Part shown: positions 1 through 6,990 of the stretch, piece after piece | How positions within the stretch are numbered: the first letter of the stretch is position 1 | Layout of the letters: each line of letters opens with the position of its first letter | NCBI GenBank assembly: GCA_030667105.1 | Contig: DAOUWN010000113.1 | Coordinates: 1 to 6,990, forward strand | From: Deltaproteobacteria bacterium | GTDB lineage: Bacteria; Desulfobacterota; Desulfobacteria; C00003060 | Direction: 5' to 3' | DNA: 6,990 nt | The notes under the pieces: model-generated | What the model saw: the letters and a program-made list of their open reading frames with translations, nothing else | What the model was told of the DNA's origin: nothing | Databases searched by the model: none | Translations under genes and position numbers: made by a program

Positions 1-531
1 AACAATCGCTTCCAGGACCTCGTCAACCCCGATCCCTTCTTTGGCCGAAGCGAGTATTGCCCCTGCCGAGTCCAGTCCAAGATCGTCTTCGATCTGCTGT
101 CTGACCCAATCCACGTCAGCGGCCGGAAGATCGATCTTGTTGATCACCGGGATAATCTCAAGATCATGGTCCATGGCCATATAAAGGTTCGCCACCGTTT
201 GGGCCTCCACCCCCTGGCTCGCATCCACCAGGATGAGGACCCCTTCACAGGATGCAAGGGACCTGGAAACCTCGTAGGTGAAATCCACGTGACCGGGTGT
301 GTCGATAAGGTTCAAGGTGTAAGTGTAGCCATCTTCGGCAGTGTAAGGCAGGGAGACGGCCTGGCTTTTGATCGTAATACCCCGCTCCCTCTCAATGTCC
401 ATTGTATCAAGGATCTGCTCTTTGAAATCTCGGTCCGAGATGATGCCGGTGGCCTGGATGAGACGGTCGGAAAGGGTCGATTTGCCGTGGTTTATGTGAG
501 CAATGATGCTGAAATTTCGAATGCGTTTCAC
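1..531 (-). CDS. lepA: Elongation factor 4 (LepA), N-terminal 177 codons, truncated by window edge
   Basis: LepA is a ribosome-binding translational GTPase that remodels stalled or mistranslocated elongation complexes. I translated the strand from a GTG start at 531; the frame is open for 177 codons to the left edge. GTPase motifs appear in order: P-loop AHINHGKST (residues 11-19), the RERGITIK switch I region (48-55), DTPGHVDF (77-84), NKID (131-134) and SAK (162-164). The opening IRNFSIIAH and the spacing of motifs are typical of LepA rather than EF-G or TypA. The start GTG overlaps the iorB stop in GTGA, with no clear Shine-Dalgarno site of its own, suggesting translational coupling; no in-frame ATG lies nearby upstream. 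Oddity: the fourth P-loop residue is Asn14 (AAC), where LepA usually has Asp. The C-terminal domains lie outside the window. Confidence 0.96.
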
Positions 532-1112
532 GATGTCCCAAAACCCATGCCAAAGGCCCGCAAATTTGCCTCCACAAACTTCTCCTTTGTCTTGGTGCGG
601 ATAGTCTCCTCAAAGGCTTCTCTGGGAACCGGCAAGGCTCCGCTGCTGGCCAGAGCGCCAATCATCACCACGTTGGCTGACAGCGCAGACCCGGCTTGCT
701 GCGCCAAGGCCTGTGCATTTAACGTAATCAGCTTCTTCACGCAGCTCCGGACAAAGGCAAAGAGCTTCTCAACATCAGGGTAAGCGCCTTTCCCAATAGC
801 CACACTGAAAGGGGTCACCGGTACGCTATTAGAAATGACCACGGAGTCGGCCGAACATCTCCGCAAAGCCCGATAAGTCTCCACCGGTTCAAATCCGAGA
901 AGAACATCTGCCTCGCCGTCCGAAATGATCGGGCTTTTTATATCGCCGATCATCACGGTCGATTCTACTACTCCGCCCCGCTGGGCCATACCATGGACCT
1001 CGCTGGCCAGGACATTATGACCCGCGTAAATTGCAGCTTCGGCCATAACCTTGGTGGCCAGAAGAGTTCCCTGCCCGCCAACGCCCGTGAAACATATACG
1101 ATAATTGTACAT
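528..1112 (-). CDS. iorB: Indolepyruvate:ferredoxin oxidoreductase, beta subunit
   Basis: This is the small subunit of the indolepyruvate oxidoreductase, which with IorA converts aryl pyruvates and CoA to aryl-acetyl-CoA and CO2 while reducing ferredoxin in the cytoplasm. The 194-residue product carries the gamma-type 2-oxoacid oxidoreductase signature: GVGGQG (residues 10-15) after a short beta strand, then [10 protein letters not shown] (about 43-52) and a [10 protein letters not shown] segment. Length fits the family. I chose the ATG at 1112 because GGAG lies 7 bases upstream (1120-1123). An in-frame ATG at 1142 would add 10 residues (MEGLVKRSDR) but has no ribosome site and lengthens the protein before the conserved strand. 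iorA ends 100 bases upstream in the same direction, and the stop overlaps the lepA start. Confidence 0.95.
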
Positions 1113-1119
1113 TCGATCG

Positions 1120-1124
1120 CTCCG
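1120..1124 (-). promoter_or_regulatory. Ribosome binding site that decides the iorB start
   Basis: CGGAG on the minus strand, 7 bases before the ATG at 1112. The alternative upstream ATG at 1142 is preceded only by A/T-rich sequence without a purine-rich site, so the shorter form of IorB is preferred. Confidence 0.75.
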
Positions 1125-1212
1125 TTTTACTAAACCTTCCATTTAATTAAACCAATTCAACTAATCAAACGGTGTTTCTCAGGCATCAATGTCGCAACAC
1201 CTGATCACTGCC

Positions 1213-3090
1213 CTAAATCTTTTTTGGCCTGATCTTCTTGCAAAACTGGATACATACCCCGCAACCGATACAAAGCTGTTCGTCAATGATCATGGTTGTC
1301 TTGGCATCAGGAGCCGGATTCTTGTAAAGGGCAGGACACCCGAAAGTGTCAATGCATTCCGTGCACTCCGTATTGCACTCAGGACCTACCACGAACGCCC
1401 GTTTTGATTTCTTCCCAAGGACCCGCCTCTCGTATAGAGGACACGGGGCCTTGGCTACAATGACGGAAAGCTGGTTTGACTCCAGGGCCTCCTGGATCGC
1501 CTTCTTGGTCTTGGACAGGTTGTTCGGGTTGACTACTGCCACCTGCTCAACGCCACAGGCCCTGACAATGGCCTCAATGGAAATAGAGGGCTTGTCCCAT
1601 CCGGGCAGCGTGATATCCGCGCCAGGATGAGGTTGGTGGCCGGTCATGGCTGTTGTGCCGTTGTCGAGGATTACGATAATGAAGTTGTGTTGGTTGTGCA
1701 CGGCATTGATCAGCCCTGTGATACCCGAGTGAAAAAACGTTGAGTCGCCGATAAACGCAATCACCTTGTTGCCTGTTACTCTGGAAATGCCGGCCGCTGA
1801 AGTGACACTGGACCCCATGCAAATAAGAAAGTCCGCTGTCTGCAAGGGGGGCAGAATTCCCAGGGTGTAACACCCGATATCTGTGGGAAAGATGGCTTCG
1901 GCCTTGGTCTCTTTCAGCACGCTGTTGACTGCATAATAGGCTGCCCGATGGGGACAACCCGCACACAGGTTCGGAGGCCGCATAGGAACCTGAATGGGCT
2001 CCGGGTTCTTCTCTACGTCGACGGGTTCTGGCAGGGTATAGTGAACGCCGAAAAACCGCGCTATGACCTCACGCACCATGCCGGGGTTGTATTCATATAG
2101 ACGTGAAAAGAGATCTGGCCTTTTTCCGGCAATAGGTGTGACAAGACCGTTGGTCTGGGCTGTAACCCTAAGACTATCCTCTAACAGAGGCTCCAGTTCC
2201 TCCACAACGAGGATCTTTTCCACCGATTTGATAAAGTCTAGTGCAAGCTTTTCAGGAAATGGGTATGTGAAACCGAGCTTCAGCACCCTGACCTTGTCCT
2301 CAATCCGAAGATCTTTGATGGCATCAGCCACGTAGTTATAGGCCATTCCGCTTGTGGCAATGCCCCACGAGCCTTCGCCGGTCACTGTATTAAAAGTCGA
2401 TTGGCAGGCCATGTCCCGAGCCTTTTCCGCCTGATCAAGAAGCACCTTGTGGCGGACCCTGGCATTTGCCGGTACAGTGACAAATCGAGCACTGTTCTTC
2501 TCAAAAGCACCTTTGGTCTTCGGGGGCCTCAGTGGGGCCGTTGTGACAATGCCGCGATAATGGCTCAACCGTGTGGTGGTCCGAAGCAGCACTGGCAGCT
2601 CAAGGGCTTCTGAAATTTCAAAGGCCGCCTTGGTCATCTCTTTGGCCTCTTGGGCGGATGCGGGTTCCAGCATCGGCAGGCTGGACAATCTGCCGTAGAT
2701 CCGACTATCCTGCTCATTCTGGCTTGAAAACATCGACGGGTCGTCGGCCGTAACGATAACCATGCCTCCCCGCACACCAACATAGGCCAATGTCATCAAT
2801 GGATCGGCAGCCACATTAAGGCCCACGTGTTTCATACTGCACATTGTCCGCACGCCAGACACAGCAGCGCCTGCAGCCGTCTCCAGGGCCACCTTTTCAT
2901 TGGTAGAATACTCAAAGTAAAGCTCTGATTCGGCAGCTATGCGGAAAAAGTTGTCTCCTATCTCAGATGACGGTGTGCCCGGATAGGTCGTGGCAAAGCC
3001 CAGGCCAGCCTCAAGAGCACCTCTAACAATGGCCTCATTTCCCAAAAGGAGAAGTTTCTTGCCTGTCTCTTCAGTCAACAGGGGATGCAT
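1213..3090 (-). CDS. iorA: Indolepyruvate:ferredoxin oxidoreductase, alpha subunit
   Basis: This is the catalytic subunit of the aryl-pyruvate oxidoreductase (625 residues, usual length). The N-terminal pyrimidine-binding-type domain has YPGTPSSE (36-43) and the STNEKVALE helix. The thiamine diphosphate domain has CAGCPHR (376-382), IGCYTLG (405-411), GDS (448-450) and NGTTAMTGHQ (477-486), the last two framing the metal/diphosphate site. A C-terminal two-[4Fe-4S] ferredoxin-like domain has Cys572, 576, 579 and 585, then Cys607, 610, 613 and 617 (CxxCxxCxxxC). The ATG at 3090 has GGAGG 6 bases upstream. It lies 141 bases after livG and 100 before iorB, so probably in one transcript. Oddity: the last cysteine is followed by Lys rather than the Pro usual in ferredoxin motifs, and the protein ends eight residues later. 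The substrate could include phenylpyruvate and hydroxyphenylpyruvate. Confidence 0.97.
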   Translation of the reverse strand: MHPLLTEETGKKLLLLGNEAIVRGALEAGLGFATTYPGTPSSEIGDNFFRIAAESELYFEYSTNEKVALETAAGAAVSGVRTMCSMKHVGLNVAADPLMTLAYVGVRGGMVIVTADDPSMFSSQNEQDSRIYGRLSSLPMLEPASAQEAKEMTKAAFEISEALELPVLLRTTTRLSHYRGIVTTAPLRPPKTKGAFEKNSARFVTVPANARVRHKVLLDQAEKARDMACQSTFNTVTGEGSWGIATSGMAYNYVADAIKDLRIEDKVRVLKLGFTYPFPEKLALDFIKSVEKILVVEELEPLLEDSLRVTAQTNGLVTPIAGKRPDLFSRLYEYNPGMVREVIARFFGVHYTLPEPVDVEKNPEPIQVPMRPPNLCAGCPHRAAYYAVNSVLKETKAEAIFPTDIGCYTLGILPPLQTADFLICMGSSVTSAAGISRVTGNKVIAFIGDSTFFHSGITGLINAVHNQHNFIIVILDNGTTAMTGHQPHPGADITLPGWDKPSISIEAIVRACGVEQVAVVNPNNLSKTKKAIQEALESNQLSVIVAKAPCPLYERRVLGKKSKRAFVVGPECNTECTECIDTFGCPALYKNPAPDAKTTMIIDEQLCIGCGVCIQFCKKIRPKKI

Positions 3091-3200
3091 AAGTACCCTC
3101 CATATTCATACGAAAATCCACAGTAACTATATTACTTTCATACCAAAAGTCTTGTTGGAAATCCAGGCTTACAAATCGATTAACCGTTGACAGGTTCACC

Positions 3201-3232
3201 ATTGCTCCATCACTCCAGTACTCCGATACTAC
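3201..3232. repeat. Degenerate tandem octamer repeat, four units
   Basis: On the plus strand four consecutive 8-base units read ATTGCTCC, ATCACTCC, AGTACTCC and GATACTAC. The first three share the CTCC end and the fourth is diverged. The run begins in the livG-iorA gap and its last unit touches the first base of the livG stop codon. It has a fixed period and no spacers, so it is not a CRISPR. Function unknown. Confidence 0.55.
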
Positions 3233-4056
3233 TACGTGAATCTTGATCCGGTAGCCCTTCTCAGGTCAGAATAGTCTATAGCTTCTCCCAGATAGGCATC
3301 AATGACATCCTGGTTGTCCTTGATGGCATGAGGGTGGCCCTCCGCTATCTTCTGGCCGTAGTTAATAACCACGATCTCGTCAGATATGTTCATGACAAGA
3401 TTCATGTCATGTTCTACGAGCAACACGGTGATGCCCTGATCCCGGATGGCGCAGATTCGTTCTGCCAGATACTCCGTTTCACGATCGTTAAGGCCTCCTG
3501 CTGGCTCATCCAGGAGAAGCAGTTCGGGGTCGGTTGCCAGAGCCCTTGCAATCTCTAGGAGCTTCTGGTCGCCCAGCGGAAGGTTGTCTGCCTTCATGTT
3601 TTTTTTCTCAAGCAGCCCTGCGAATTCGAGGCGCTCCAGGGCAGCTTGCCTTATATTGTCTTCCTCCTGTCGCATTCTTTTGAGGCGAAAGCCAGCAGCA
3701 AAGAACTCTGATCGAGTCCTCACATGGCGTCCTACCATCACATTTTCAAGCACCGTCATCTCGCCAAAAAGCTCCACGGTTTGAAATGTACTCGAAACAC
3801 CTTGAGCTGCGATCTGATACGGATTCAGACCGTTTATGGGCCGCCCCTTCAACCGGACCTCGCCCCTTGTGGGATCAAGAAGACCGGTAATCATCTTAAA
3901 CAGCGTGGTCTTTCCAGCGCCGTTTGGACCAATGACGGACTTGATCAACCCTGAATCCACGGCAAAAGAGAGAGTCTTGATGGCCAAGAGGCCGCCGAAT
4001 TCTTTGCATAGCCCATCAATTTCCAATAAGGCCGTATTATCTTTCGTTAAACGCAT
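3232..4056 (-). CDS. livG: ABC transporter ATP-binding protein, branched-chain amino acid (LivG) type
   Basis: The product (274 residues) is a cytoplasmic ATPase that would power a high-affinity amino acid importer. Seen in order: an aromatic A-loop region near LCKEFGG, Walker A GPNGAGKTT (43-51), Q-loop Gln92 in STFQ, signature segment NLPLGDQK (158-165), Walker B LLLLDEP (179-185) with the GGL D-loop, and the H-switch His216 in VEHDM. The VLENVMVGRH stretch and the AEGHP...VIDAYLGE tail are typical of LivG rather than LivF. The signature departs from LSGGQ, as is common in this family. The start is uncertain: ATG at 4056, or GTG three codons earlier at 4065; neither has a clear ribosome site. 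No permease, LivF or binding-protein gene lies in the window; iorA follows instead. Specificity for branched-chain amino acids is inferred from family only. Confidence 0.9.
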   Translation of the reverse strand: MRLTKDNTALLEIDGLCKEFGGLLAIKTLSFAVDSGLIKSVIGPNGAGKTTLFKMITGLLDPTRGEVRLKGRPINGLNPYQIAAQGVSSTFQTVELFGEMTVLENVMVGRHVRTRSEFFAAGFRLKRMRQEEDNIRQAALERLEFAGLLEKKNMKADNLPLGDQKLLEIARALATDPELLLLDEPAGGLNDRETEYLAERICAIRDQGITVLLVEHDMNLVMNISDEIVVINYGQKIAEGHPHAIKDNQDVIDAYLGEAIDYSDLRRATGSRFT

Positions 4057-4096
4057 AGTTATCACTTAAACGCGCAACTTCTCAACAACCATTGGG

Positions 4097-4125
4097 ACGA
4101 TAGATGAACCCCGGGGTCTTGTCAA
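4097..4125 (-). promoter_or_regulatory. Predicted sigma-70 promoter for livG-iorA-iorB-lepA
   Basis: On the minus strand, -35 TTGACA (4125-4120, perfect), a 17-base spacer and -10 TATCGT (4102-4097, 4 of 6 matches). Transcription would start near 4090, about 35 bases before the livG ATG. The spacer contains a perfect 10-bp palindrome, ACCCCGGGGT (4108-4117), a possible operator. Confidence 0.6.
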
Positions 4126-4137
4126 CCTGAGCCTCGA

Positions 4138-4153
4138 TGCGCAATTACGTGCA
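4138..4153. promoter_or_regulatory. Possible activator site, imperfect palindrome TGCGC-N6-GTGCA
   Basis: TGCGC and GTGCA are inverted half sites (4 of 5 matched) separated by 6 bases, lying about 60-70 bases upstream of the predicted sigma-54 start. The TGC...GCA form is reminiscent of NtrC-class enhancer sites, but the match is short and the position closer than usual. Confidence 0.3.
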
Positions 4154-4182
4154 CTCAACAAACAAGCCTGTCTCATATCAAA

Positions 4183-4199
4183 TTGGCAGGATACTTGCA
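4183..4199 (+). promoter_or_regulatory. Predicted sigma-54 (-24/-12) promoter of the receiver-NrtA fusion gene
   Basis: TTGGCAGGATACTTGCA matches the sigma-54 consensus YTGGCACGNNNNTTGCW at all but one defined base (G for C at 4189). The key GG (4185-4186) and GC (4197-4198) are separated by exactly 10 bases. Transcription would start near 4210, leaving a leader of about 60 bases before the ATG at 4270. Expression would then need RpoN and an ATP-dependent enhancer-binding activator. Confidence 0.8.
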
Positions 4200-4269
4200 C
4201 GAATAGACAGCCGGTAGACCTTGATGACAACATTTCGTTCACTTTTTCTCAAGAACAAGGAGCACGAAA

Positions 4270-5643
4270 ATGTCACTTGATAAGCAAATGACAATCCTGG
4301 TTGTAGATGATTCCGGAACCATGCGGGCGATGTTCAAACAGATGCTAAACAAACTTGGTTTTGATAACATCGTTTCCGCTGTGGATGGCGTTGATGGAAT
4401 CGAGAAGCTTCAAGAGCATAATATAGATCTGATAATCAGCGACTGGAATATGCCGAACAAGGACGGGTTGGACTTTCTGAAATGGGTCCGTCATAATGAG
4501 AAATGTGAGAACATCCCTTTCATACTGGCAACAGCACAGGGCGATAAGTCTCAACAAGAGCGTGGCAAAAAGGAGGGGGCAAATAACCATATTGCAAAGC
4601 CCTTTGACACTGAAGAACTCAAGGCAAAAATCGATGAGACTCTGGGCCTAAAAGACGAGGTCGCGGAAGAAAAGCGCGAGCCAAGGTTGATTCACGGGAA
4701 GGTTCAAATGAGAGTGGGGCATATTCAGATTACCGATCACCTTGCGCTCGGAGTTCTAAGGCATCAAATACAAACAGGAGAGGTTAGTCCCAAATATTTT
4801 GACCTGGAGACTCTATGCATGCCCGGCTGGAACCCGATTCAAGAATCTCTGGAAAAGGGAAACGTTGATGCCGCTTTCATTCTGGCCCCTATTGCAATGG
4901 ATCTCTTTGGATTTGGTGCACCCATAAAACTAGTACTGCTGGCTCACAAAAACGGCAGCATTTTTGTGCGTTCAAACAAGGATGAAATCAATAATTATGA
5001 ATCATTGAAAGACTTCTTCAAATATAAGGTAATAGACATCCCCCATAAAATGTCTGTCCATAATATGTTGGCACACAAATTCTTGACCGACTTGGGGTTG
5101 AAGCCGGGAGTCCCTGGAAAGAAGGCCATTAATGTCCGTTTTGAAGTCGTGCCGCCAGTAAAGATGCCCGGTATAATGAAGGAGAATGAAGAAGTCGCAG
5201 GCTTTATTGTGGCCGAACCGATCGGTTCGAATGCTATTGCAAAGGGGATTGCAGAGTTTCAGTTCCTCTCTGCATCGCTCTGGAAAAACCATCCCTGCTG
5301 CGTCGTTGCCATGCGGGATGAGTTTATTTCACAATATCCCGGTGCCGTGTATGAGTTTACCTCTTTGCTTGTTCAGGCTGGGAAGTTCATCGAGCAAAAC
5401 AAAAAAAAGGCTGCTGAAATTGCTGTTGCTTTCTTGGATCCCAAAAAAGAATTGGGCTTGACCACATCCGTTCTGGATAAGGTCCTTAACGAACCTCAAG
5501 GGATAACAATGAATGACCTGTACCCGGTGCTTGAGGACCTTGACAAGATTCAACGATATATGCACGATCAAATGGACATAGGCGTTTTGATTGACGTCGA
5601 AAGGTTCGTTGATCTAAAATTTGCCGATGCAGCGTGCAAATAG
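4270..5643 (+). CDS. CheY-like receiver fused to NrtA/NMT1-like ligand-binding domain
   Basis: Residues 1-126 form a complete receiver domain: acidic pair Asp13/Asp14, phospho-acceptor Asp58 within SDWNMPN, Thr88 and Lys110 (KPF). The alignment with chemotaxis CheY is one residue offset and unusually close around VVDDSGTMR and ISDWNMPN; His107 sits where CheY has Tyr106. After a charged linker (about 127-145), residues 146-445 resemble the NrtA/SsuA/NMT1 periplasmic-binding fold: MRVGHIQITDHLALGV at the first strand, MPGWNPIQESLEKGNVDAAFILAP, and IKLVLLAHKNGS. There is no signal peptide, lipobox or membrane segment, so the binding domain should be cytoplasmic. The ATG has AAGGAG 7 bases upstream (4257-4262). 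The gene stands alone, with divergent livG upstream and convergent usp downstream. A phosphorylation-controlled small-molecule sensor is inferred; ligand, kinase and output partner are unknown, and no DNA-binding domain is present. Confidence 0.9.
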   Translation: MSLDKQMTILVVDDSGTMRAMFKQMLNKLGFDNIVSAVDGVDGIEKLQEHNIDLIISDWNMPNKDGLDFLKWVRHNEKCENIPFILATAQGDKSQQERGKKEGANNHIAKPFDTEELKAKIDETLGLKDEVAEEKREPRLIHGKVQMRVGHIQITDHLALGVLRHQIQTGEVSPKYFDLETLCMPGWNPIQESLEKGNVDAAFILAPIAMDLFGFGAPIKLVLLAHKNGSIFVRSNKDEINNYESLKDFFKYKVIDIPHKMSVHNMLAHKFLTDLGLKPGVPGKKAINVRFEVVPPVKMPGIMKENEEVAGFIVAEPIGSNAIAKGIAEFQFLSASLWKNHPCCVVAMRDEFISQYPGAVYEFTSLLVQAGKFIEQNKKKAAEIAVAFLDPKKELGLTTSVLDKVLNEPQGITMNDLYPVLEDLDKIQRYMHDQMDIGVLIDVERFVDLKFADAACK

Positions 5644-5711
5644 ATCTCAGTAGTCCGGCCTGAGTCAGTTGCGGATAGCACGGGCACGGGTTATCGAAAT
5701 AGAGTACTCGC

Positions 5712-6185
5712 TCAGTCCACGACAATAACGGACACTTTTTTCGCAAGCTGGACAACCTTGTTGGAAACACTTCCAAAGAAAAACTCCTTAATACCCGACA
5801 GTCCCCGTCTTCCAATAACAAGCGTATCGTATTTCCCATGCTGGGCCTCGCTTAATATATCTCTTGCTAGGCCCACCTTCTTTTTCCTGATCTTGACGGT
5901 CACATTCTTGGAAGCAAAACCTGACTTTACGAGACCCTGCTTGGCCTTTTCCATAAAGGCTTTAACGCTCTCTTTCTTGGTGTCCTCTAGGGCACAAAAT
6001 GTTTGCCTGCTTTCCTTAAATAGTGGTGTAAGGGAGGGGCTGTCCAACCCGCAGGCTGCAGTGGAATCTGGGATGACACTAAATAGCGTAATCAAGGCGG
6101 TTGGATGCATGCTTTTAGCCACGTAGTTAACTGCCTTCATGGAATTCTTGGATTCATCGACTGCAACTAGAATTTTTTTTGCCAT
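5712..6185 (-). CDS. UspA-family universal stress protein, ATP-binding type
   Basis: A 157-residue single-domain Usp protein, expected to be a soluble dimer acting in stress or energy-limitation responses. The N-terminal strand MAKKILVAVDESKNSMKAV gives the adenine-contacting Asp. The C-terminal motif GRRG-(9 residues)-GSVS matches the G-2x-G-9x-G(S/T) nucleotide-binding signature, so this member should bind ATP, unlike the UspA subclass. The protein ends with KKVSVIVVD, the usual last strand. I chose the ATG at 6185 because AAAGGAG lies 7 bases upstream; the in-frame ATG at 6221 would add a non-conserved 12-residue lead. The central SLTPLFKESRQTFCALEDTKKESVKAF helix insert is family-like. 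It converges on the receiver fusion gene, 68 bases apart, with no evident terminator between. Confidence 0.94.
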   Translation of the reverse strand: MAKKILVAVDESKNSMKAVNYVAKSMHPTALITLFSVIPDSTAACGLDSPSLTPLFKESRQTFCALEDTKKESVKAFMEKAKQGLVKSGFASKNVTVKIRKKKVGLARDILSEAQHGKYDTLVIGRRGLSGIKEFFFGSVSNKVVQLAKKVSVIVVD

Positions 6186-6192
6186 TTGTCCT

Positions 6193-6199
6193 CTCCTTT
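6193..6199 (-). promoter_or_regulatory. Ribosome binding site that decides the usp start
   Basis: AAAGGAG on the minus strand, 7 bases before the ATG at 6185. It lies inside the coding extension that would result from the upstream ATG at 6221, which supports the shorter protein. Confidence 0.8.
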
Positions 6200-6215
6200 C
6201 ATGAAGCCTTCTGTC

Positions 6216-6272
6216 ACACAAAGTACCTCGATTTTTATTGATAATCCTTTATCAATATGAGGCTCTTTGTGT
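6216..6272. repeat. Nested inverted repeat over the usp promoter (possible operator)
   Basis: The core is a perfect 9-bp inverted repeat, TATTGATAA (6236-6244) and TTATCAATA (6249-6257), around a 4-base loop. Outside it CCTC (6226-6229) pairs with GAGG (6259-6262), and ACACAAAG (6216-6223) with CTTTGTGT (6265-6272). The core covers the -10 box and predicted start of usp, so a dimeric repressor site is more likely than an RNA element; the outer right arm overlaps the -35. Confidence 0.6.
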
Positions 6273-6275
6273 CAA
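6248..6275 (-). promoter_or_regulatory. Predicted sigma-70 promoter of the universal stress gene
   Basis: On the minus strand, -35 TTGACA (6275-6270, perfect), a 16-base spacer and -10 GATAAA (6253-6248, 4 of 6). The start would be near 6241, giving a leader of about 55 bases. The -10 lies inside a perfect inverted repeat. Confidence 0.6.
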
Positions 6276-6432
6276 GGGCAAAAGGTGTAAATCTCAACAG
6301 TTGGGGCGCCCCCTTGCAACTTCTCAAGGGGTTCTGGCTGTACGGTCACCAAAATGGTGGGAAAAGGTATGGTTTGGGGAGCTAAAGGAGAGGAGAATTA
6401 AGCGTCCTCGTTCTGCTTCACGTTGATTCCAT
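6276..6432. other. Non-coding spacer between the usp promoter and the DUF6812-like gene
   Basis: This stretch holds no convincing gene. It contains a 10-bp palindrome GGGGCGCCCC (6303-6312), bracketed by GTTG and CAAC, and a small hairpin CACCA-AAA-TGGTG (6347-6359). Neither is followed by a T-run on either strand, so no terminator for the small gene is called. A plus-strand open frame here lacks a ribosome site and recognisable sequence. Confidence 0.5.
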
Positions 6433-6690
6433 TTATACGCCTGCCAGTTCTTCGTCTTCTGGTTCAATCCAGACAATGTGGGCCTTGTTGATAATGAAGA
6501 CCTTTCCAGAGCCTCCAGAGTATGCAGCATCAAATAGAACAACAAAAGGCTTATCTGATCCAGTAAATATGTCTGAAACCCGTCGTTCTGAACCTAGATT
6601 TACCTTGCCTTGTATGACACTACCTTCTACTGTTCTCACCGTAATTGCTGCAGGTCTGACTATTCTGTCCGCTTCAACCGGTGTTCCCAT
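6433..6690 (-). CDS. Small hypothetical protein resembling DUF6812
   Basis: An 85-residue acidic protein, probably beta-rich and cytoplasmic (no signal peptide or membrane helix). From memory it resembles the DUF6812 family: a VRTVEGSVIQGKVNL strand pair, then a RRVSDIFTGSDKPFVVLFDA segment and a C-terminal VFIINKAHIVWIEPEDE strand. The family has no established function. The start is the ATG at 6690, with GGAGG 8 bases upstream (6699-6703); an earlier in-frame start at 6759 would lie upstream of the predicted promoter and lacks a ribosome site. It lies just downstream of tRNA-Ala and apparently has its own promoter. Confidence 0.8.
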   Translation of the reverse strand: MGTPVEADRIVRPAAITVRTVEGSVIQGKVNLGSERRVSDIFTGSDKPFVVLFDAAYSGGSGKVFIINKAHIVWIEPEDEELAGV

Positions 6691-6698
6691 GATAAGAC

Positions 6699-6703
6699 CC
6701 TCC
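6699..6703 (-). promoter_or_regulatory. Ribosome binding site that decides the small gene's start
   Basis: GGAGG on the minus strand, 8 bases before the ATG at 6690. It favours the 85-residue form over a 108-residue reading. Confidence 0.75.
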
Positions 6704-6717
6704 CTGCTTGGCACAAG

Positions 6718-6746
6718 ATTATCATGATTCCAACAAAAAGGGTCAA
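6718..6746 (-). promoter_or_regulatory. Predicted sigma-70 promoter of the DUF6812-like gene
   Basis: On the minus strand, -35 TTGACC (6746-6741, 5 of 6), an exact 17-base spacer and -10 GATAAT (6723-6718, 5 of 6). Transcription would start near 6711, about 20 bases before the ATG at 6690. The -35 is part of the inverted repeat called as the tRNA terminator. Confidence 0.7.
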
Positions 6747-6762
6747 CCGAAATGACCAACCC
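6735..6762 (-). terminator. Probable intrinsic terminator of tRNA-Ala
   Basis: On the minus strand, GGGTTGGTC (6762-6754), loop ATTTC and GGTTGACCC (6748-6740) can form a 9-bp stem with four G-U pairs, followed at once by TTTTT (6739-6735). It begins 14 bases after the tRNA CCA. A shorter alternative fold pairs GGTCA with TGACC. Stem strength is modest. Confidence 0.55.
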
Positions 6763-6776
6763 ATCTCATAACAACT

Positions 6777-6852
6777 TGGTGGAGCTGAGGGGGATCGAAC
6801 CCCTGACCTCATGACTGCCAGTCATGCGCTCTCCCAGCTGAGCTACAGCCCC
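6777..6852 (-). tRNA. tRNA-Ala (anticodon GGC)
   Basis: The minus strand folds as a complete 76-base tRNA including an encoded CCA. The acceptor stem GGGGCTG pairs with CAGCTCC and contains the G3-U70 wobble, the main alanine identity element. The D arm GCTC...GAGC, the anticodon stem CATGA/TCATG with loop CTGGCAG (anticodon GGC, reading GCC and GCU codons) and the T arm with GGTTCGATCC are all intact. Confidence 0.98.
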
Positions 6853-6881
6853 GATCAGTCTGTTTTTTTCTGGCAGAAAAT

Positions 6882-6990
6882 TGACGGCTTCGTAAAAAGT
6901 CCATCTGCGGCGTTGCGCTTCATCCCCGCCCTGTTAAATTCTCGCTATGCGAGACGGCGGAGCCGATTTAACAGGGTAAATCATTGCGAC
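6882..6990. repeat. Structured intergenic repeat, part of a probable larger palindromic element
   Basis: This non-coding stretch begins near TGACGGCTTCGTAAAAAGTC and runs off the right edge. Its core (6929-6976) is an 11-bp inverted repeat, CCCTGTTAAAT and ATTTAACAGGG, enclosing two hairpins: TCTCGC-TAT-GCGAGA (6940-6954) and CGGC-GGA-GCCG (6955-6965). All junctions abut exactly, so the 48 bases form a three-way junction with unpaired bases only in the loops. Outside it, GTTGC (6912-6916) can pair with GCGAC (6986-6990), hinting that the palindrome continues past the window. A REP- or MITE-like mobile repeat is inferred; no transposase is visible. Confidence 0.65.

Follow-up and report, generated by a model that had tools for sequence, protein, structure and literature searches.

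A gene in the genome of a Deltaproteobacteria bacterium (contig DAOUWN010000113.1, positions 1 to 6,990; this whole stretch of 6,990 nucleotides is called the window) encodes a protein, named REC-NMT1 here, that is probably a cytoplasmic chemosensory regulator in which a CheY-like receiver domain (REC) carries its own NrtA-like ligand-binding domain. A chemosensory role is the best reading because related proteins are fused to CheW or CheA, che genes are neighbours in part of the family, co-occurrence with CheA is complete, and the receiver is CheY-like. The architecture, predicted fold, conservation, fusion partners, gene neighbourhoods and co-occurrence described below are computational observations. 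In the usual picture of chemotaxis, membrane receptors do the sensing and CheY is a pure messenger. Here, a sensor and a CheY-like receiver are placed together in the cytoplasm, often with CheW or CheA, in a family present in 76 of the 291 genomes sampled from the class of the genome nearest the window, and in other phyla. If the reading is correct, cells would steer by what was already taken up, and a direct link from sensor to messenger would exist outside the receptors.

The gene and its parts are the following:

4270 to 5643 (including the stop codon), + strand: REC-NMT1 fusion gene with a 457-residue product, supported by the open reading frame (ORF), Pfam, homologues and a structure model
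4294 to 4632, + strand: CheY-like receiver, residues 9-121, from Pfam, with the phospho-acceptor Asp58, Thr88 and Lys110, and DWNMP at the phospho-site
4642 to 4698, + strand: linker, about residues 125-143, modelled without helix or strand at 125-139; block means of the predicted local distance difference test (pLDDT) are 80 and 72 (residues 121-140)
4699 to 5640, + strand: NMT1_2/NrtA-like binding domain, residues 144-457, from a Pfam match over 144-385, structure comparison and invariant residues

Domain architecture of the window protein

The REC-NMT1 protein of the window is the product of an intact gene and not an assembly artefact. With the binding part as query, 1740 homologues were found, and both REC and NMT1 are present in 115 of the 120 best listed, which rules out a frameshift or assembly error joining two genes, a risk named in the initial annotation of this DNA. 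That annotation, made from the sequence alone, had also described an intact CheY-like receiver, and the PF00072 match bears this out, with Asp14, Asp58, Thr88 and Lys110 present in all 134 REC-NMT1 rows aligned and position 13 being Asp or Glu. The best NCBIfam match of the window receiver is the CheY equivalog NF007901, at 100.5 bits against a cut-off of 189, and its identity to CheY structures is 37-40%; it is CheY-like and not CheY itself.

The second domain, described earlier as being of the NrtA/NMT1 type, matches PF13379 (NMT1_2) with 103 bits, well above the gathering cut-off of 24.7, and its predicted structure agrees with that fold. No export signal of the kind expected for a substrate-binding protein of an ATP-binding cassette (ABC) system is visible in the translation, as judged by inspection and with no predictor run, and the receiver occupies the N-terminus. 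The protein is thus predicted to be cytoplasmic, as had been proposed. Pfam reports no CheW domain in the window protein, which therefore lacks the combination of CheW and receiver that characterises CheV; this combination is found in the long form of the family, REC-NMT1-CheW. The earlier statement that there is no output domain is consequently right for the window copy and wrong for the family.

Family extent and architectures

A scan of one genome per species gave 217 family loci, of which the best 80 form the first set examined, so that this set leans to window-like proteins. Its sources, many of them sulfate reducers, include Desulfobacteraceae, other Desulfobacterales, Spirochaetes, KSB1, Melioribacteraceae, Rhabdochromatium and a second gammaproteobacterium; the locus most similar to the window (L001) is 96% identical. 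A focal gene was recognised in 79 loci, of which 62 encode the short, window-like form and 17 a protein with a C-terminal CheW. In one of the latter (L062) the CheW domain has a Pfam E-value of 1.4e-34. A search with this protein gave 1123 matches, and of the 120 best listed, 114 combine REC, NMT1 and CheW. CheW is the commonest addition seen to the REC-NMT1 pair. A survey for the same architecture, as outlined in the initial annotation, thus reveals a widespread family, with a context of CheW fusions absent from that annotation.

Fusions to CheA, kinase, SpoIIE or STAS domains are rarer than those to CheW. One of them is a 1027-residue protein (L103:6978-10058) with the order REC-NMT1-CheA core-CheW, including the dimerisation and ATPase domains, beside genes for a methyl-accepting chemotaxis protein (MCP) and CheW; Pfam reports no Hpt domain in this CheA-like kinase. 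Tandem (REC-NMT1)x2-CheW proteins are found in L102 and L111, HisKA-HATPase-REC-NMT1 in L107, REC-NMT1-SpoIIE in L106, and REC-NMT1 with HATPase and STAS in L110 and L112.

Rows for the tree and the conservation analysis were matches to the window binding domain at E < 1e-40 over more than 250 residues. The tree of 151 binding-domain rows is a quick build with a long-branch warning and 56 weak forks drawn open. In it, the window protein forms a pair with L001, supported at 100, within a 63-row short clade that has a support of 100 in the Shimodaira-Hasegawa-like approximate likelihood-ratio test; four short-labelled rows (L104, L108, L109, L119) are placed outside this clade. CheW-fused rows surround the short clade, and 18 NMT1-only rows lie on the opposite side of the midpoint root. 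This fits a single loss of CheW giving rise to the short clade, with inner forks that are partly weak and a root placed by midpoint only.

The simple ORF caller lost focal genes in the locus tables, the tree and the conservation rows through overlapping ORFs, truncation or odd domain order. No focal gene was recognised for the neighbour count in L034, L093, L099 and L107, of which L093 is a REC-NMT1-CheW. Seven loci were left out of neighbour counts, tree and conservation by hand, namely the NMT1-only locus L082 and six that repeat loci already included (L083, L087, L088, L100, L101, L126).

Gene neighbourhoods

Short and long forms coexist in the genome of L001, where cheA, truncated where the contig begins, and then cheR immediately precede the gene for REC-NMT1-CheW. 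Another genome has the order CheA-CheR-[REC-NMT1-CheW]-CheX (L084). In a third locus, L098, genes for CheW, three MCPs, REC-NMT1-CheW (727 residues), another MCP and CheR follow one another on one strand, and beyond CheR a single further called ORF, on the opposite strand, separates it from CheA; Pfam was run on all che genes of this cluster but the first two MCPs, and the locus stands outside the counts, having been lost by the ORF caller and omitted by hand. CheA lies beside each gene of L112 to L117, with an MCP in five of these six loci. Short forms also have che genes near them, with CheA, CheD and CheR in L026, CheA in L041, and an MCP in L017, L051, L073 and L077. A link to CheA, CheW, CheR or an MCP by fusion or gene order is thus seen for part of the family, and the window gene itself is linked solely through its paralogue and relatives.

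Che-type genes are concentrated close to the focal gene, making up 46/487 genes at a distance of one to two genes, 89/1301 at one to six, 5/286 at seven to eight and 0/289 at nine to sixteen; the loci are mutually related, so that these and the following neighbour counts are not independent. Over the 79 loci, CheD occurs within six genes upstream in 20 (18 of which also have a transporter permease) and Hpt within three genes downstream in 11. An ABC permease lies within two genes upstream in 34 loci, and an ATPase is a neighbour in 31, a binding protein in 33 and an NMT1-only protein in 35. In a large Desulfobacteraceae-like group the genes are arranged as CheD (divergent), NMT1-only, ABC ATPase, NMT1 binding protein, permease, REC-NMT1, a protein named c1 and sometimes Hpt. 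The start of the operon's NMT1 binding protein is twin-arginine-like, as judged by eye.

The c1 protein, of about 230 residues, is encoded within two genes downstream of REC-NMT1 in 37 of the 79 loci (for example, L030:9890-10576). Its N-terminal part of about 80 residues is conserved, as is a C-terminal helix motif around ILKESRxFWE, and the linker between the two is acidic and variable. The protein might serve as a tethered peptide that binds a partner. No Pfam family was found in the one member tested, and its AlphaFold2 model is poor (pLDDT 63, predicted template-modelling score 0.29). Homologues were matched in 3 of 10 genomes tested; the genome nearest the window gave none. In nine loci of one clade (L061-L064, L067-L071), a rhodanese gene adjoins or lies near REC-NMT1-CheW, which is only a hint of sulfur compounds as ligand.

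Genome co-occurrence

In the class-wide survey, the 76 family-positive genomes have matches of E 1e-120 or better; the copy numbers per genome are lower bounds, as the top four to six candidates were scored in each. CheA (PF02895) is found in 201 of the 291 genomes, with 76/76 among family-positive and 125/215 among negative ones (Fisher 2e-15). FliM is found in 157, with 64/76 against 93/215, and its presence differs between forms, at 51/54 genomes with the short form and 13/22 with long forms only (Fisher 4e-4; the two genome lists were made by hand). All 16 family-bearing genomes searched for MCPs have them, at 2 to 40 matches per genome. A phylum-wide draw gave the family in 11 of 198 genomes.

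Genomes with REC-NMT1-CheW and no FliM match are G241, G274, G324, G326, G388, G403, G440, G444 and G474, several of which hold three or four family copies, suggesting a use outside flagellar motility.

Conservation of the binding domain

Seventeen residues are invariant in all 134 binding domains, namely His151, Asp156, His157, Trp187, Asn188, Asp211, His226, Gly229, Ser230, His259, Ser262, Pro317, Trp338, His341, Pro342, Cys343 and Cys344, the scored residues having been picked for conservation in earlier alignments. Exceptions occur in one row each at Gln153, His264 and Met299, in four at Glu316 and in eleven at Phe291. In a separate alignment of 30 rows, His259 is replaced by Tyr or Phe in three. 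From these motifs and general knowledge of the fold, the conserved residues probably line the cleft.

Parts of the conserved set recur in related binding proteins: HPCC, VAEP and NGS in the operon's binding protein, and CC, VAEP and IPH..S.H in 3un6, a Staphylococcus aureus ABC-type binding protein crystallised with zinc. It is a fair inference that the family has one common ligand. On the bolder reading given below, the invariant histidines and paired cysteines would point to a metal-dependent or sulfur ligand supplied by the linked transporter. The chosen binding-loop residues stay invariant across varying fusion partners, which counts for a ligand sensor of chemosensory signalling. Conservation this strong in the binding loops makes ligand discovery tractable as a single-protein problem.

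Proposed mode of action and alternatives

From these data we infer ligand binding, the kind of ligand, the phosphodonor and the direction of output. A small molecule, probably imported by an NMT1-type ABC transporter, would fill the cytoplasmic cleft, and closure of the cleft would alter the receiver surface or the lifetime of its phosphorylation. Asp58 would be phosphorylated by CheA, or in some genomes by a neighbouring Hpt protein, and the combined state of ligand and phosphate would tune signalling through CheA or CheY. In the CheW-fused form this would take place inside the receptor array, and the CheW-less form of the window would be a soluble CheY-like regulator that acts on CheA or the flagellar switch, with CheA as a candidate donor, FliM as a candidate target and c1 or Hpt as candidate partners. 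That ligand binding and phosphorylation are joint inputs had been suggested before, and this is supported as the likely logic. A bolder version, in which REC-NMT1 is a soluble, membrane-free chemoreceptor module with a single ligand family-wide that bypasses methyl-accepting receptors and feeds the array via CheW, via CheA directly or as a free CheY-like switch, is doubtful as a joint claim.

Several observations weigh against a chemosensory role. The neighbours of the gene in the window are a LivG-like ATPase, indolepyruvate oxidoreductase genes and a universal stress protein, with no che gene nearby, and its nearest relatives (L001, L002, L003, L004, L007, L010) have no che gene from six genes before to three after the focal gene, several of their contigs ending early. 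Only 19 of the 79 first-set loci and 17 of 50 second-set loci, the latter chosen in part for unusual architectures, have a che-type gene at a distance of four genes or fewer. In the genome nearest the window there are just 2 MCP matches at E 1e-10. FliM is absent from 9 of the 22 genomes with long forms only, and therefore the output need not be flagellar. The CheA and FliM counts ignore phylogeny and completeness, and they assume that the same 291 genomes were drawn for the family, CheA and FliM (they agree where listed).

Among kinase, chemotaxis motor and NasT-like protein, the partners offered by the initial annotation, a chemosensory one is favoured by the CheW and CheA fusions, the che neighbours and the presence of CheA in every family-positive genome. 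The protein could instead mainly regulate a linked ABC transporter, as the cytoplasmic NrtC/CmpC regulatory domains do, sensing internal substrate and gating uptake with the receiver as a second input. This is unlikely, since no such transporter adjoins the gene in the window, in L001 or in most long-form loci, and the fusions seen in the examined loci are to CheW, CheA, kinase, SpoIIE and STAS, never to an ABC ATPase. The NrtC/CmpC domains themselves (8wm7, 9u9z, 9uak, 9uai) differ in belonging to the ATPase subunit of an ABC transporter, and 3un6 in being the ligand-binding part of an ABC-type import system with no receiver.

A NasS-like mechanism would have the sensor release an RNA- or DNA-binding partner upon ligand binding, with the receiver as a mere docking domain. 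According to PMC3795266, NasS is a cytoplasmic NrtA-like sensor with no signal sequence that contacts a REC-ANTAR protein, and the window protein, judged from its N-terminus, shares the cytoplasmic NrtA-like domain without signal peptide. In the NasS system, however, the receiver and the binding domain sit on different polypeptides, and NasS is partnered by an ANTAR protein (PMC3795266). Of 16 genomes with the family, 5 have ANTAR matches; the genome nearest the window has none. In the two genomes where one shares the REC-NMT1 contig it is 0.9 and 1.07 Mb from the short gene, so that no linked NasT-type ANTAR gene was found in the 16. The phospho-site, moreover, is invariant; a NasS-like mechanism is very improbable, and the NasT-like partner is disfavoured with it. 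The short form might also be a passive phosphate sink for CheA whose binding domain no longer senses. It lacks CheW, and CheV is thought to be partly a phosphate sink, as stated in PMC12691637. Against this, the chosen binding-loop residues of 67 short rows are nearly as invariant as those of 53 long rows (exceptions include Glu316, kept in 64/67, and Gln153, in 66/67 short rows); a dead domain would not keep them, and a sink is quite improbable.

Relation to known systems

Among known proteins, CheV is the closest precedent for the union of a receiver with CheW. The long form of the family likewise joins the two, and some of its genes lie beside cheA, cheR, cheX or MCP genes. It differs in its order, REC-NMT1-CheW, with the binding domain in between, and the window copy has no CheW. 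The long form is, in effect, a CheV with a built-in binding protein. The closest precedent for placing a cytoplasmic sensor domain in the array is CheWS of Treponema denticola, described in PMC10653840 as the first reported characterised CheW-fused chemotaxis sensor. According to that paper, CheWS couples chemotaxis signalling and carries a cytoplasmic domain for sensing a small molecule in the same chain, which the REC-NMT1-CheW architecture resembles; its sensor is a CheR-like domain that binds S-adenosylmethionine, whereas an NrtA-like domain plus a receiver is present here. The paper counts 30 undescribed CheW architectures in its Fig. S10, and REC-NMT1-CheW may be among them.

No prior description of REC-NMT1 or REC-NMT1-CheW was found among the matches listed in the open-licence literature, and a word search of the main text of a paper on CheA architectures (PMC10782961) found no NMT1 or binding-protein domain. 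Among the matches listed to the L062 protein, some database entries are named "chemotaxis protein CheW" or "Response regulator receiver modulated..."; annotation pipelines have therefore met the REC-NMT1-CheW combination.

Promoter candidate and surroundings

One further feature lies upstream of the gene:

4184 to 4199, + strand: candidate sigma-54 (-24/-12) promoter, TGGCAGGATACTTGCA, deviating from the consensus at one position and located 86 bases upstream of the start codon

Shuffled versions of the window contain one or more such matches in 26 of 200 cases, so the site is suggestive only. A sigma-54-like site with one mismatch lies at -86 in both the window and L001 and at -174 in L002. 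Family-wide, sites with at most one mismatch precede 3/136 focal genes against 11/1365 others (p 0.13; one of the three focal matches, L083, is on the same contig as L001), and sites with at most two mismatches 7/136 against 24/1365 (p 0.018). Further downstream, the window encodes a small protein with DUF6812 (6433-6759; E 1e-10), beside a tRNA-Ala gene with the anticodon ggc (6777-6852).
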